Assembly (NCBI RefSeq): GCF_002374315.1 | Contig: NZ_NWUX01000002.1 | Coordinates: forward strand, 67,150 to 131,149 | DNA length: 64,000 bases | Direction of reading: 5' to 3' | Origin: Vreelandella nigrificans | Lineage (GTDB): Bacteria; Pseudomonadota; Gammaproteobacteria; Pseudomonadales; Halomonadaceae | Shown: positions 21,584-27,184 of the stretch, piece by piece | Position numbering within the stretch: position 1 is the first letter of the stretch | Layout of the letters: every line of letters starts with the position of its first letter | The notes under the pieces: model-generated | Database searches by the model: none | What the model saw: only the letters and a program-made list of their open reading frames with translations | What the model was told of the DNA's origin: nothing | Position numbers and translations under genes: made by a program

Positions 21584-22843
21584 ATGAATCTCACTGAACT
21601 CAAGCAAAAACCCGTTCCCGAGCTGCTCGAAATCGCCCGCGAAATGGGTATCGACAACTTAGCCCGTTCGCGCAAGCAGGACATCATTTTCGCCATCCTC
21701 AAAAAGCACGCAAAAAGTGGTGAGGATATTTATGGTGATGGTGTGCTGGAAATTCTTCAGGATGGCTTCGGCTTCCTGCGCAGCGCCGACAGTTCCTATC
21801 TCGCCGGACCGGATGATATCTACGTATCGCCGTCACAGATTCGTCGCTTCAATCTGCGCAAAGGCGACTCCATTTCCGGCAAAATCCGCCCGCCTAAAGA
21901 AGGTGAGCGCTACTTTGCCCTGCTCAAAGTTAGCCAGATCAACTTTGACCGTCCCGAAAATGCCAAGCATAAGATTCTCTTTGAGAACTTAACGCCGCTA
22001 TTCCCGGACGACCGGATGCGCATGGAGATCGGTAACGGCTCCACGGAAGACCTTACCGCTCGGATCATTGATTTGACCGCGCCGATTGGCAAAGGCCAAC
22101 GTGGTCTGCTGGTATCTCCGCCCAAAGCGGGTAAGACGCTGATGCTGCAGAATATCGCGACATCCATTACGCGTAATAACCCCGAGTGCCATCTGATCGT
22201 ACTGCTGATCGACGAGCGCCCAGAGGAAGTCACTGAGATGTCGCGCACCGTGCGCGGTGAAGTGGTCGCCTCTACCTTCGATGAACCACCTGCCCGCCAC
22301 GTGCAGGTTGCAGAAATGGTGATCGAAAAAGCCAAGCGTCTGGTTGAGCACAAAAAAGATGTGGTGATTCTGCTTGATTCTATTACCCGCTTGGCCCGTG
22401 CCTACAACACCGTTGTGCCTAGCTCAGGCAAAGTACTGACAGGTGGTGTGGACGCCCACGCGCTTGAAAAGCCGAAACGCTTCTTTGGTGCTGCACGTAA
22501 TATCGAAGAGGGCGGTAGCCTGACGATTATCGCCACCGCGCTGGTAGATACCGGTTCGAAAATGGACGAGGTCATCTTCGAAGAGTTTAAGGGCACCGGT
22601 AACATGGAGGCGCACCTTGATCGCAAGTTGGCTGAAAAGCGTGTGTTCCCTGCCATCAATATTCGTCGCAGTGGCACTCGTCGTGAAGACTTGTTGGCAT
22701 CTGAAGACGAAATGCAGCGCATGTGGATTTTGCGCAAGCTACTTAACCCGATGGAAGATACCGCCGCGACAGAGTTCTTGATTGATCGTCTGAAAGACAC
22801 CAAGACGAACCTGGAATTCTTTGAAGCAATGAAGCGCCGCTAA
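21584..22843 (+). CDS. rho: Transcription termination factor Rho
   Basis: Hexameric RNA-dependent ATPase that terminates transcription. The 419-aa product shows the N-terminal helical and RNA-binding OB domain ([12 protein letters not shown], about residues 52-65). The Walker A segment is [15 protein letters not shown] (about 178-192), followed by [13 protein letters not shown] and the Q/R-loop region near 280-330. The ATG at 21584 lacks a clear Shine-Dalgarno. ubiD follows after 55 bp without a terminator. Confidence 0.98.
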
Positions 22844-24434: not shown

Positions 24435-25241
24435 ATGAGCGCAAGGACGTTAACGTGCAAAACGCTAACCTGCGTAGTCACCGCTGTTGAAGATTTGAAC
24501 CCTGACGTATTTGGGGTGACGCTCGAAGGGCGCGTTGAAGCCATGCAACATGCGCCTGGCCAGTATTTAGAACTCAAGTTGGACGATAACACTTGGGTGC
24601 CGTTTTCAATTGCCAGCTTTGATCGTGGTGATGGCATTATTGAACTGCATATTCAGCACTGGCCCGAGCGCGAGAATTCGGTACGCTTGCGAGACCTTCT
24701 ACAAGTAGCTAATCAGCTAACGGTGCGCCTACCCAGTGGTGAGTGTGTGCTGGATACGGCAAGCGAGCGTCCACTGCTGCTCATCGCCGCAGGCACTGGT
24801 TTTGCTCAGATGAAAGCGATTGTAGAAGCGGCACTTAGCAAACAGCCTAGCCGACCTATTTCTTTGTGGTGGGCTAACCGCGAACACCGCGATCTTTATG
24901 CTGAAGATCTCGCCTGCGAGTGGGCAATACAGTACCCAAACGTTGCATTTCAAGCAGTCACAGAGTTTCCTCTTACCGAGCCGTTAGCGGCTGGCGAGCG
25001 AATTTCTCACCATCAAGGACGAATCGACTTGGTGCTGGAGAGTGATCTTGAGACAGGGCTTGAGAGAGGGCTTGAAACAGTGCTTGAAACAGGGCTGGCA
25101 ATATCACCAAGTGATTGCGATATCTACCTCTCTGGTTCACCGGGCATGGTGTACGCCTGTGTTGATGTTTTAGAGAGAAAAGGCCTGAGCAGCAAGCGCA
25201 TGTTCTCGGATGTATTTGCCTACGCGCCACGCCCTCACTAA
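24435..25241 (+). CDS. Fre-like NAD(P)H-flavin reductase
   Basis: Ferredoxin-reductase-superfamily enzyme likely to reduce free flavin with NAD(P)H; next to ubiD it could support prenyl-FMN chemistry (inference). The ATG at 24435, with AGAGG upstream, gives 268 aa. The FAD-binding barrel covers about residues 1-105 and the NAD domain starts at LLLIAAGTGFAQMKA, ending with SGSPGMVYACVDVL. The usual R-x-(Y/F)-S flavin motif reads WVPFSIAS, so the Arg is replaced. Residues about 201-220 are a four-residue repeat (LETG/LERG/LETV/LETG) encoded by 12-bp tandem repeats, inserted in the NAD domain. Confidence 0.85.
   Translation: MSARTLTCKTLTCVVTAVEDLNPDVFGVTLEGRVEAMQHAPGQYLELKLDDNTWVPFSIASFDRGDGIIELHIQHWPERENSVRLRDLLQVANQLTVRLPSGECVLDTASERPLLLIAAGTGFAQMKAIVEAALSKQPSRPISLWWANREHRDLYAEDLACEWAIQYPNVAFQAVTEFPLTEPLAAGERISHHQGRIDLVLESDLETGLERGLETVLETGLAISPSDCDIYLSGSPGMVYACVDVLERKGLSSKRMFSDVFAYAPRPH
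25035..25094 (+). repeat. In-frame 12-bp tandem repeat in the flavin reductase gene
   Basis: CTTGAGACAGGG (25047), CTTGAGAGAGGG (25059), CTTGAAACAGTG (25071) and CTTGAAACAGGG (25083), with a diverged copy at 25035. The period of 12 keeps the frame and adds four residues per unit. Confidence 0.85.
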
Positions 25242-25269
25242 AATGGTGGGCCCTTTGTGGCGCGCAGCT

Positions 25270-25314
25270 TTGTGACATACTGGATTGTGACATACGGCTT
25301 TGTGACATACGGCG
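25270..25314. repeat. 3 x 15-bp tandem repeat before a small ORF
   Basis: TTGTGACATAC begins at 25270, 25285 and 25300, a period of exactly 15 bp. It lies between the flavin reductase stop and the 42-residue ORF at 25349. The motif resembles a split -35 element (TTGTGACA) but no matching -10 is certain. Confidence 0.8.
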
Positions 25315-25348
25315 CTGACCGTAACCATGACGACAACGAGGAGGCTTT

Positions 25349-25477
25349 ATGGCCCATCATGATGACAACTTTAAAGATGAATCTGGTTTGCTTTCCATTG
25401 TGCTCGGCGTTGTGGTGTTGGTAAGTATGAGCGCGCTGCCTGCAACAATTGGTTGGATACAAGCATTTGGCGGATGA
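25349..25477 (+). CDS. Small single-span membrane protein (42 aa), unrecognised
   Basis: A short frame starting ATG at 25349 with an excellent ribosome site, GAGGAGG at 25338-25344. The product begins with a charged, His/Asp-rich head (MAHHDDNFKDESG), then one hydrophobic helix (LLSIVLGVVVLVSMSALPAT, residues 14-33) and ends IGWIQAFGG. I do not recognise the family. The ribosome site and clean membrane-protein composition argue that it is real. A triple 15-bp repeat lies directly upstream. Confidence 0.65.
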   Translation: MAHHDDNFKDESGLLSIVLGVVVLVSMSALPATIGWIQAFGG

Positions 25478-25562
25478 TGGTTGCCATTTTGCTCGTATAC
25501 AGGCAGGATTAAGCGTATAGATTTTATCGCCCTCGGCGAGCTTACTGAATTGGAACGATTTC

Positions 25563-25721
25563 ATGCATAACGCACTCACTACACAGCAGACCCAAGCCAA
25601 ACCGGAAACGGCGTTTGGCGCGTGGGAGATTGCAAGTGTTAGTGGTGCTAGCAGAACAGATGCTGCTGCATTTGTTTATGCTGCGTATTGGTTTAGCCAC
25701 GGTGTGTCCCTGGCCGACTAA
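25563..25721 (+). CDS. Small ORF (52 aa), unrecognised
   Basis: ATG at 25563, stop TAA at 25719. The product starts MHNALTTQQTQAKPETAFGAW and continues through an Ala/Ser-rich stretch to an aromatic segment FVYAAYWFSHGVSLAD. The Shine-Dalgarno is weak (TTGGAA). A strong intrinsic terminator 50 bp after the stop supports a short transcription unit here. No family is recognised. A longer overlapping frame in another phase (from 25615) runs through the terminator and was rejected. Confidence 0.45.
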   Translation: MHNALTTQQTQAKPETAFGAWEIASVSGASRTDAAAFVYAAYWFSHGVSLAD

Positions 25722-25770
25722 TAACGTCGCGTCAGCAGGCACACCGCCCCGGTTGCCTGCCGCATGCAAA

Positions 25771-25802
25771 GAAGCCTCGGTTGGTAACCCAACCGAGGCT
25801 TC
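25771..25802 (+). terminator. Strong bidirectional-looking intrinsic terminator
   Basis: A perfect 14-bp stem, GAAGCCTCGGTTGG at 25771-25784 and its complement at 25789-25802, with a TAAC loop. It is flanked by AAA on the left and TTTCGTTT on the right. It closes the small-ORF unit upstream of the DAHP synthase leader. Confidence 0.85.
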
Positions 25803-25825
25803 TTTCGTTTCACGTTGGTTAATGT

Positions 25826-25876
25826 TTTAGATCTACTCGCGGTTTAGAACTACTCACATTTTAGAACTATCAATAT
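25826..25876. repeat. 3 x 17-bp direct repeats upstream of the aro leader
   Basis: TTTAGATCTACTC (25826), TTTAGAACTACTC (25843) and TTTAGAACTATCA (25860) start exactly 17 bp apart. They lie between the terminator at 25771-25802 and the leader ORF, where the promoter of the DAHP synthase unit should be. They may be operator half-sites or another slippage repeat. Confidence 0.7.
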
Positions 25877-25914
25877 TTCAACCGTCCATAGGATATTCAT
25901 CAAGGAGCTGCACC

Positions 25915-26094
25915 ATGTCGTACCGCGCACACTCAATCGCTAACTCCATTGCCCCCCGCTATATCGGTTATGGCTATGGATGGCGATTTAGCGGCGCGCG
26001 GTCGGTGCAAGCTGCCACCTCCGACCGTGCCTGTTTGGGTGGCCTTCTAGTCACGCGAAGTCATACGCGATGTCACACGCTTTCGGAGAGATAA
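25915..26094 (+). CDS. Aromatic-codon-rich leader peptide ahead of DAHP synthase (59 aa)
   Basis: ATG at 25915 with AAGGAG at 25902-25907; stop TAA at 26092-26094, only 4 bp before the DAHP synthase start. Residues 14-25 read PRYIGYGYGWRF: three Tyr, one Trp and one Phe in ten residues, encoded at 25960-25989. A strong hairpin begins 6 nt after these codons (25996-26030). The C-terminal codons cover the Shine-Dalgarno of the next gene. This layout is that of a regulatory leader peptide sensing aromatic amino acids. Similar logic is known for trp and phe leaders, but I know of none for this gene. It could instead be an ordinary small protein. Confidence 0.6.
   Translation: MSYRAHSIANSIAPRYIGYGYGWRFSGARSVQAATSDRACLGGLLVTRSHTRCHTLSER
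25996..26043 (+). promoter_or_regulatory. Hairpin/pseudoknot candidate in the DAHP synthase leader
   Basis: GCGCGGTCGG (25996-26005) pairs with CCGACCGTGC (26021-26030), 10 bp with one G-T, around a 15-nt loop. GCCACC in that loop (26014-26019) is complementary to GGTGGC at 26038-26043, so the loop could pair downstream as an H-type pseudoknot or an alternative stem. No T-run follows, so any attenuation would act on translation or through Rho. Confidence 0.55.
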
Positions 26095-26098
26095 TCTA

Positions 26099-27184
26099 AT
26101 GAATGCCCATGTCAGCCCAGCTTGCACTGCCGTTTCAAATGTATCGTCGCTTACATCGACCTATGAGAAAACTGTTGCTCAGCCATTACCACTCCCTGCA
26201 GAGCTGCGTCGTAGGATTGCGATTAGCGCGCCGCTAGGTGAGCAAATTGCACAACAGCGTCATGCGGTTCAGCGTATCCTAAATGGTCAGGATAGCCGCC
26301 TATTGGTGGTGGTCGGACCGTGCTCCATTCATGATCCAGATGCTGCGCTTGAGTATGCCGACAGGCTAGCCGCGCTCAGTGATGAAGTCAGCGAGCAGAT
26401 ACTCCCAGTCATGCGTGTTTACGTTGAAAAGCCGCGTACCACGGTAGGTTGGAAAGGACTGGCCTACGATCCTGATTTAGACGGCAGTGGTGATATGTCG
26501 AGAGGCATTGCACTCTCCCGAGAGCTAATGCACGCGGTGGCAGAACGCGGCTTGCCAGTGGCTACTGAGCTTTTACAGCCAATGTTGGCGCCGTACCTTG
26601 ATGACTTGCTGAGCTGGGTGGCGATTGGTGCTCGTACCACTGAGTCGCAGTTGCATCGTGAATTGGCCAGTGATTTAAGCGCTGCTGTGGGCTTCAAAAA
26701 TGCCACGAATGGTGATGTGCAGGTTGCTATAGATGCCATGCAAACGGCAGCTCACGCTCATCAGCGCTTTGCAATCGACAATGAAGGGCGTCCTGTTATG
26801 CAGCAAACGGCTGGTAACCCCCACACACATGTGGTGCTACGGGGCGGCCACGGAGAGCCAAACTACCAAGCCCATCATGTGCGCTCTGCGGTGAAAGCCT
26901 TGCGGGATGCGGGGCAAAATCCACGCTTAATGGTGGACTGTAGCCATGCGAATGCACGTAAGGATCATCGTCGCCAAAGTGAGGTTATGCTGGATGTGTT
27001 GGCACAGCGCCAAAAGGGTGATGCCAATTTGGTCGGCTTAATGCTTGAAAGTCATCTGTTTGAAGGTAAGCAGGCGCTATCACCAAGCAATATGCGCTAT
27101 GGCGTGTCGGTGACCGACGCTTGTGTTAGCTGGGAAGCTACTGAGCGGTTGCTGAAAAGCGCGGCAGAACGGCTAGCCCGTTAA
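26099..27184 (+). CDS. 3-deoxy-7-phosphoheptulonate (DAHP) synthase, class I
   Basis: First step of the shikimate pathway: condenses erythrose 4-phosphate and phosphoenolpyruvate. The 361-aa product is of the AroF/AroG/AroH type, with VVVGPCSIHDPDAALEYADRL near residues 75-95, YVEKPRTTVGWKGL near 113-126 and the C-terminal VDCSHANA metal/substrate motif. Feedback type (Phe, Tyr or Trp) cannot be told by eye. The ATG at 26099 is 8 bp after GGAGAG, which lies within the leader ORF. Confidence 0.93.
   Translation: MNAHVSPACTAVSNVSSLTSTYEKTVAQPLPLPAELRRRIAISAPLGEQIAQQRHAVQRILNGQDSRLLVVVGPCSIHDPDAALEYADRLAALSDEVSEQILPVMRVYVEKPRTTVGWKGLAYDPDLDGSGDMSRGIALSRELMHAVAERGLPVATELLQPMLAPYLDDLLSWVAIGARTTESQLHRELASDLSAAVGFKNATNGDVQVAIDAMQTAAHAHQRFAIDNEGRPVMQQTAGNPHTHVVLRGGHGEPNYQAHHVRSAVKALRDAGQNPRLMVDCSHANARKDHRRQSEVMLDVLAQRQKGDANLVGLMLESHLFEGKQALSPSNMRYGVSVTDACVSWEATERLLKSAAERLAR

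Follow-up and report, generated by a model that had tools for sequence, protein, structure and literature searches.

Two candidate aromatic leader peptides in series upstream of a DAHP synthase gene in Vreelandella nigrificans and its relatives

The DAHP synthase locus and its upstream reading frames

We analyzed a 64,000-nucleotide stretch of Vreelandella nigrificans DNA (the window, whose numbering is used throughout) containing a class I DAHP synthase gene, for which aroF (26099-27184) is used here as a short name. The reaction of DAHP synthase commits metabolites to aromatic amino acid synthesis, and the enzyme is a frequent engineering target. The gene product matched Pfam DAHP_synth_1 (PF00793, E 1.5e-79) and NCBIfam TIGR00034 (aroFGH, 443 bits against a cut-off of 173.2). 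Two short open reading frames with aromatic codons, leader ORF 1 and leader ORF 2, were observed upstream, the stop codon of the first lying 194 nt upstream of the start of the second (25915). The main features were as follows.

25563-25721, + strand: leader ORF 1, 52 aa, C-terminal FVYAAYWFSHGVSLAD (...FVYAAYWFS...), found by regular expression and conserved in the panel
25902-25907, + strand: Shine-Dalgarno sequence AAGGAG of leader ORF 2, 8-13 nt before its ATG
25915-26094, + strand: leader ORF 2, 59 aa, with an in-frame ATG, a Shine-Dalgarno sequence and a conserved core
26084-26088, + strand: aroF Shine-Dalgarno sequence CGGAG, in the last leader 2 codons, with the C before GGAG conserved
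26099-27184, + strand: class I DAHP synthase gene (aroF-type; PF00793, TIGR00034)

An earlier note on this DNA had described leader ORF 2 as a 59-codon frame with a ribosome site, and both were present, with the stop codon 4 nt before the DAHP synthase ATG at 26099. The same note had placed the Shine-Dalgarno sequence of the enzyme gene inside the last leader codons, which is where CGGAG was observed. It had overlooked leader ORF 1 and the terminator after it (25563-25805).

No TyrR-type box (consensus TGTAAAN6TTTACA) was found at up to 3 mismatches between 19437 and 37610, and no T-box was among the 4 Rfam matches at E <=5 for 25000-26600. One promoter-like site was observed near the leaders, compared to 1.3 in shuffled sequences, and was thus not above chance. 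A second DAHP synthase copy, 47% identical, is present elsewhere in the same genome, and the regular expressions for leader 1 and leader 2 gave no match upstream of it. An ORF at 21584-22843, approximately 3 kb upstream of leader 1, encodes what we take to be a protein resembling transcription terminator Rho, and its position near leader 1 is probably a coincidence.

The region was compared across related genomes. The family search recovered the enzyme at E 1e-120 or better in 176 of 201 genomes, and 90 loci were used as the family panel (L001, the window's own locus, and L003-L091), with second copies (L104, L107, L108, and L092 as a second copy of L001) and a paralogue (L002) excluded. Five more family loci contained both leaders (L105, L106, L121, L126, L127), of which L105 and L106 are absent from later panel counts. 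The order search examined 46 loci, three of them second copies, and neither leader was recognized in 9 loci of other families. Further groups are referred to as f20, f21, f38 and f43; f21 presumably corresponds to the Pseudomonadaceae, because the RNA P15 (see below) was described there. Among 80 named loci, which probably overlap the panel, TGGCGATTTA was observed in 77 and leader 1 (strict regular expression) in 67. Both leaders were observed in Halomonas elongata (L211), Vreelandella titanicae (L161) and V. boliviensis (L163).

The first leader, its terminator and the RNA P15

Leader 1 was recognized by a single regular expression at 85 of the 90 family-panel loci, and the same expression matched 3 of 3 further family loci, 11 of 11 f21 loci and 9 of 9 f43 loci. 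Five panel loci were missed (L053, L058, L067, L076, L090), with variants visible in L067, L076 and L090, while a match in L139 was judged false. A leader 1 variant, e.g. of the WWFGYGFYFSQ type, preceded DAHP synthase in f20 (7 of 7 loci) and f38 (2 of 2). These diverged copies were in L132-L136, L138 and L140 (f20) and in L144 and L148 (f38); those examined further (L132, L138, L144, L148) were followed by a terminator-like hairpin with a T-run. The following elements were located in and after leader 1.

25670-25799, + strand: sub-threshold match to Rfam RF00627 (P15), 29.7 bits against a gathering cut-off of 70
25686-25697, + strand: regulatory codons TAT TGG TTT AGC, from synonymous-site conservation
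25701-25708, + strand: segment A of attenuator 1, GGTGTGTC, from A:B pairing over 105 loci
25738-25745, + strand: segment B, GGCACACC, partner of A or C, from comparative pairing
25751-25757, + strand: segment C, GGTTGCC, pairing with the terminator apex, from ribosome-position folding
25768-25805, + strand: intrinsic terminator of attenuator 1, 17 bp, stem conserved in relatives
25783-25789, + strand: segment D, GGTAACC, the terminator apex, inside 25768-25805

Read 5' to 3' from the leader 1 Trp codon, the order was segment A (GGUGUGCC in 50 of 105 loci), stop codon, B, C (GGGUUGCC-like) and the terminator with apex D (GGCAACCC-like). The codon TTT was kept in 107 of 108 loci and AGC in 92 of 108, compared to a TTT to TTC ratio of 73 to 48 for the remaining Phe codons of the leader 1 ORFs. 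The terminator begins 46 nt past the leader 1 stop codon, and 106 of 108 loci had a stem of 12 bp or more (L035 was misread in this count, and the stem in L071 is 9 bp). Much of the T-run in the window copy lies inside the stem, while relatives have longer T-runs after it; a simple terminator scan of the window does not list 25768-25805. The RNA from 25540 to 25830 folded far better than its shuffles (z -7.9), with the terminator accounting for much of the signal. Segment A occurred as GGTGTGCC in 50 and as GGCGTGCC in 21 of 105 loci. The best A:B match within a 62-nt stretch had all 8 pairs in 76 of 105 loci, and one pair was observed as U-A, C-G and G-C types, a compensatory exchange. In this survey the terminator was misplaced for the window's own locus (L001), and its A:B value of -6.2 is invalid; a different rule located the terminator for the ribosome-position folds below.

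A ribosome footprint extends approximately 15 nt beyond the first P-site base. We modelled ribosome position by cutting the RNA at the front edge and computing equilibrium folds without pseudoknots, over loci that are related to one another. With the edge at Trp+12, A:B was predicted to pair across the 105 loci, and segment C had a mean unpaired fraction of 0.50, compared to 0.14 with the edge past the stop codon and 0.25 with no ribosome. This fraction was higher by more than 0.2 for the Trp stall than for the stop position in 87 of 105 loci and lower by more than 0.2 in none. For a transcript whose end lies 12 nt past the apex, the antiterminator helix C:D had 10.2 expected base pairs in the stalled state, 2.6 at the stop codon and 4.5 without a ribosome, while the terminator had 1.9, 6.2 and 4.4, respectively. 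The stalled and stop states differed by more than 1 bp in the expected direction in 85 of 105 loci, and the reverse by more than 1 bp was observed in none. At 6-8 nt past the apex C:D was present in all three ribosome states (9.4-12.2 pairs), so the difference arises once the 3' arm of the terminator emerges. Scrambling segment C halved C:D, from 12.2 to 6.4 pairs at 8 nt past the apex. C:D energies from the terminator-stem survey, which used wide windows, were left unused.

The switching computed for leader 1 would proceed as follows. A ribosome waiting at the Tyr and Trp codons would halt before A, allowing A:B to form and leaving C free to capture the terminator apex, and RNA polymerase would read through. 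A ribosome at the stop codon would instead cover A, B would take C, and the terminator would form. Leader 1 combines sequence features of an attenuator, namely clustered aromatic codons, an intrinsic terminator and, as predicted by folding, a ribosome-dependent antiterminator. It is very likely a ribosome-mediated transcription attenuator, and this first leader is well supported in silico. Like the trpL/pheL-type attenuators of Escherichia coli (PMC11802643), leader 1 has aromatic codons before a biosynthetic gene, though a different one. Alternative hairpins and an intrinsic terminator are common to both as well, but in leader 1 segment C pairs with the terminator apex. Segment A lies beyond the stalled ribosome, and the starvation form of leader 1 would be A:B and not B:C.

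The same region corresponds to P15, which Rfam lists as a Pseudomonas sRNA and which a later paper (PMC2375449) names among the sRNAs detected by Livny et al. Searching 145 genomes of the order yielded 12 matches to P15 at E <=0.01, 6 of them above the gathering cut-off, and all 12 were located just upstream of DAHP synthase when their positions were compared with the enzyme searches. For the seven matches that belong to f21 and f43, the encoded peptide ends in a YGYWFS-type sequence, seen directly in six and, for the seventh (genome G242), as L130. P15 corresponds to the end of aromatic leader ORF 1 plus the terminator before DAHP synthase (25670-25805 in the window; L093-L099). The two are alike in that P15 spans these same parts 5' of the enzyme gene, and unlike in that the window copy scores 29.7 of the 70 bits and P15 is annotated as an sRNA and not as a leader. 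The detected P15 RNA is what would be expected of a prematurely terminated leader. No paper tying P15 to a DAHP synthase gene or explaining P15 was among the matches listed in open PMC full text.

The second leader and its pseudoknot

The aromatic stretch that had been reported for leader 2 was present as PRYIGYGYGWRF at codons 14-25. The following elements were located within this reading frame.

25981-25992, + strand: core TGG CGA TTT AGC (W-R-F-S), at the end of the aromatic run, from codon conservation
25999-26005, + strand: pseudoknot stem 1, 5' strand, CGGTCGG, 98.4% of cells paired, two-sided changes in 3 of 7 pairs
26014-26019, + strand: pseudoknot stem 2, 5' strand, GCCACC, 99.2% of cells paired, two-sided changes in 2 of 6 pairs
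26019-26024, + strand: CTCCGA, complementary to the aroF Shine-Dalgarno region and overlapping both pseudoknot stems
26021-26027, + strand: pseudoknot stem 1, 3' strand, CCGACCG, from the covariation count
26038-26043, + strand: pseudoknot stem 2, 3' strand, GGTGGC, from the covariation count

Leader 2 was found by an amino acid regular expression at 84 of 90 family loci; it was missed in L054, L067, L071, L084, L088 and L089, with degenerate copies in L054 and L071. The core TGGCGATTT was also observed in 11 of 11 f21 loci and in 2 of 9 f43 loci, the remaining 7 being without it. The 12 codons 5' of TGGCGATTT held a mean of 3.35 aromatics, compared to 0.52 and 1.61 in the other frames (100 loci), and an in-frame ATG preceded by at least GGA or GAG was present in all 100 core-carrying loci. 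The number of codons before the Trp varied from 11 to 26, with the frame kept. The alignment of relatives that the earlier note had suggested as a check showed conserved aromatic codons and a conserved hairpin with compensatory changes. The frame-specific aromatics and the conservation of the ORF, core and pseudoknot agree with its view of an aromatic leader of DAHP synthase and not a chance ORF, and leader 2 is almost certainly a real translated RNA element.

Among the 84 loci, which were chosen at the amino acid level, the core codons TGG, CGA and TTT were each observed in 84 and AGC in 72, while the other Phe codons in leader 2 ORFs were TTT 23 to TTC 27. A constraint on the peptide only was rejected for these codons since synonymous sites are fixed. 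The string TTT AGC of leader 1 spans 25692-25697 and CGA TTT AGC of leader 2 spans 25984-25992, with TTT and CGA TTT fixed and the AGC after them mostly so. In L125 and L128, CGATTTAGC was kept where the Trp was lost. The 12-mer TGGCGATTTAGC was present in 10 of 18 genomes searched: once each in six f21 genomes and one f43 genome, always at the DAHP synthase leader, once each in two f38 genomes, located elsewhere, and five times in the window genome, once at leader 2. A stalled ribosome would cover exactly this segment, which may be a reason why the core matters. The aroF start is a weak candidate for a pairing partner of the core. Frameshifting at CGA UUU AGC was dropped on the reading frames: the aroF frame of the window is open from -48 only, the core lies at -118, and no slippery heptamer was seen.

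The 10-bp hairpin claimed for leader 2 was present in the window (25996-26005/26021-26030, with one G.U), but the part conserved by eye is only the inner 7 bp (25999-26005/26021-26027). The claimed loop contact was found, GCCACC (26014-26019) pairing with GGUGGC (26038-26043). The resulting stems 1 (7 bp) and 2 (6 bp) cross, forming an H-type pseudoknot. Another element of the earlier proposal was not supported: a ribosome stalled on the aromatic codons was to block the left arm of the hairpin, but with the usual footprint Tyr and Trp stalls end just before the stem and only a stall at Phe25 would block it.

To evaluate the pseudoknot we used 79 distinct sequences, consisting of 74 of the 84 family loci (identical ones removed), 4 f21 loci and L071. 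All 79 aligned without gaps over a stretch of 63 nt running from TGG to GGTGGC, and 98.7% of cells were paired. Two-sided changes were observed in 13 cells of 5 pairs, compared to 2.4 in shuffles, and 0 of 500 shuffles reached 13, although the shuffling ignores relatedness; the count of pair types was matched by 8 of 500 shuffles. Slid versions of the pseudoknot had 24-52% of cells paired, the slide of +3 giving 11 two-sided cells with 52% paired. In L045 the peptide is changed (Thr to Ile, Gly to Asp) yet stem 2 is whole, and in L052 it is likewise changed (Met, Asp) with 5 of 6 stem 2 pairs kept, which argues that the RNA is selected over the peptide there. A model of the pseudoknot gave a single match in each of 35 family genomes out of 61, and 30 of the 35 matches were within approximately 260 nt 5' of DAHP synthase among the positions listed, the other 5 being outside the positions listed. 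In a wider set of 321 genomes of the class the model matched the window's own genome only, with search filters that lose weak members. The fold of 25880-26150 alone was unremarkable (z -0.95), so the case for leader 2 rests on comparison. By eye, no such pseudoknot was found in the short f21 form of leader 2, which retains the core. This short form without a recognizable pseudoknot was observed in L109, L111, L113, L115, L116, L118 and L120, and carries a conserved CGAACAC close to the stop codon; the distance from that stop codon to aroF is 44-48 nt.

Proposed control of aroF by two leaders and alternative readings

Among 82 family loci, 77 have the leader 2 stop codon on the aroF start, between -7 and +4 relative to its ATG (L063 and L080 had no start pick, leaving 82 of 84 for start-based counts). 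None of the 18 loci outside the family panel had this arrangement, and in the 11 f21 loci the stop codon was 41-48 nt upstream of aroF. The aroF Shine-Dalgarno sequence had a C before GGAG in 67 of 82 loci, with 4 more having C before GAGG, while that of leader 2 itself had an A before GGAG in 75 of 82. In a small control of 10 window ORFs the base before the Shine-Dalgarno sequence was A in 7, G in 2 and C in 1. The leader 2 frame across the aroF Shine-Dalgarno sequence differs between genera (TCG GAG or CGG AGT), so the C is not a constraint of the peptide; it makes the site complementary to CUCCG, a segment that the two pseudoknot stems bury. A conserved CGATGTC was also observed just 5' of the aroF Shine-Dalgarno sequence (26050-26080 in the window), apparently duplicated as a unit of approximately 12 nt in some species, the window included (L008, L011, L013, L029, L042).

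We propose the following role for the pseudoknot in aroF translation. A ribosome waiting at the leader 2 Tyr and Trp codons would cover the core TGGCGATTTAGC and leave the pseudoknot intact at its front edge, and the intact pseudoknot would lock away CUCCG, an anti-Shine-Dalgarno-like segment, leaving the aroF site free. With charged tRNAs plentiful, ribosomes would pass the codons without waiting, unfold the pseudoknot and end leader translation at the aroF start. Pairing of CUCCG with the Shine-Dalgarno sequence comprises 5-6 bp, and at least 3 expected base pairs were computed in 39 of 80 loci. Opening the start was computed to cost 5.83 kcal/mol with the knot locked, compared to 6.32 with random locks and 6.9 unlocked (paired test p 1.6e-5, which ignores relatedness). 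The knot lock outdid every one of the 12 random locks in only 4 of 80 loci, and in 20 of 80 it outdid 9 or more of them. With a ribosome past the 5' strand of stem 1 the cost was 7.8, and 7.7 without a ribosome. The computed effect of the pseudoknot on start opening is modest, and switching by leader 2 is plausible but weakly supported.

The earlier note had pointed to translational or Rho-dependent control because it saw no T-run. The simple scan, which also misses 25768-25805 and other sites, listed no intrinsic terminator after leader 2 between 26006 and 26300, but the locus does have a terminator attenuator farther upstream. The translational half of that proposal seems the better fit to leader 2, given the stop codon on the aroF start and the unusual Shine-Dalgarno base complementary to the pseudoknot, and we lean towards leader 2 acting on translation.

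Another possibility, which we hold to be rather unlikely, is that leader 2 acts through nothing more than translational coupling or occlusion. Ribosomes finishing on the aroF start would set initiation, with the aromatic codons modulating flux and the pseudoknot serving as a pacing block. The stop-on-start arrangement of the family and the A before GGAG in the leader's own Shine-Dalgarno sequence favor such coupling, but it does not need the C before GGAG at aroF, and the distant stop codons of f21 do not fit it.

Pairing of the core TGGCGATTTAGC with the aroF start through UGAAYGCC (Met-Asn-Ala), similar to the base stem of the LEU element discussed below, was attractive as a main mechanism but weak, and we now regard it as an unlikely alternative. 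Over 131 offsets the mean duplex energy was minimal exactly at the start codon (-6.79, compared to a mean of -4.84, sd 0.73), and 80 of 100 loci start with Met-Asn-Ala by the first start picks, of which 10 in 100 were later corrected on a distance check. However, only 12 of 100 loci had their best window starting within -2 to +1, and masking the core had little effect, changing the start-opening cost by a mean of -0.31 kcal/mol, no larger than the -0.34 obtained by masking 24 nt upstream. Furthermore, L125 and L128 keep CGATTTAGC though their proteins start Met-Gln-Gln, and Met-Asn-Ala also occurs without leader 2 (L088, L119, L129, L130).

It is improbable that leader 2 is a Rho-dependent or uncoupling transcription attenuator in which a stalled ribosome shields the RNA from Rho; the scan, which listed no terminator up to 26300, favors such an attenuator, but simple Rho access would not lead one to expect either the two-sided changes of the pseudoknot or the coupling of the stop codon. 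Least probable is that the conserved region is an sRNA gene, as the Rfam entry and the available part of PMC2375449 would have P15, or a metabolite riboswitch with incidental ORFs, since the aromatic codons are in frame in both ORFs, the leader 2 frame is never lost as its length changes, and every P15 match precedes DAHP synthase.

The arrangement we consider likely is two stacked aromatic leaders in series before DAHP synthase, the first acting on transcription and the second on translation start. The sequences themselves show both ORFs and the conservation of each, the terminator, helices that carry two-sided changes and the family stop-on-start arrangement. Transcripts read through at leader 1 would then meet leader 2, acting on translation start. 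We infer the switching of leader 2, a shared transcript for both leaders and tRNA charging as the signal; both leaders probably serve to turn the enzyme on when the cell is short of Tyr, Trp or Phe. A further reading, offered tentatively, is that leader 2 is a new type of translation attenuator in Gammaproteobacteria, with a ribosome-gated pseudoknot in a leader ORF behind a transcription attenuator on the same mRNA. The fixed CGA UUU AGC (UUU AGC in leader 1) would then be a dedicated stall or contact signal and not only a tRNA sensor, and P15 would represent the RNA left by termination at the first stage.

Several described systems are similar in part. Upstream of leuA, Actinobacteria carry the LEU element, in which a leader ORF containing a codon run also holds a pseudoknot, and for which a base stem with the Shine-Dalgarno sequence has been proposed (PMC1262725). 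It shares with leader 2 a run of regulatory codons and a pseudoknot within the leader of a first pathway enzyme, but it concerns leucine, leuA and another phylum in place of aromatics and DAHP synthase. The base stem, in which the codon run pairs with the Shine-Dalgarno sequence, is part of the LEU model and weakly seen in leader 2, and the separate upstream terminator attenuator belongs to our locus and not to the LEU element as described there. Leader 2 thus appears to resemble the LEU element in working and not to be a member, given the other gene and amino acid and a base stem that is not established. The nearest case by gene is the aroR leader of Corynebacterium glutamicum aroF, where a Phe-Tyr-Phe peptide directs ribosome-mediated attenuation of a DAHP synthase gene; this is a single transcriptional leader, with no pseudoknot mentioned in the portions available (PMC4046766, PMC11802643). 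Two leader peptides on one transcript controlling translation are described for ermB, but there stalling is induced by antibiotic and no amino acid is sensed (PMC8274638). DAHP is not mentioned in the available part of PMC2965389, and no leader peptide of DAHP synthase in Pseudomonas or Halomonas was described among the matches listed in open PMC full text. As attenuation, the two-leader arrangement is ordinary in principle, and it is new in layout as far as the literature was searched.

If the two-stage leader is true, it would give a function to the orphan Rfam RNA P15. It would also represent RNA-level control that replaces or supplements TyrR/TrpR outside Enterobacteria, and hosts used for production, such as Halomonas and Pseudomonas putida, would have a naturally occurring sensor with two layers.
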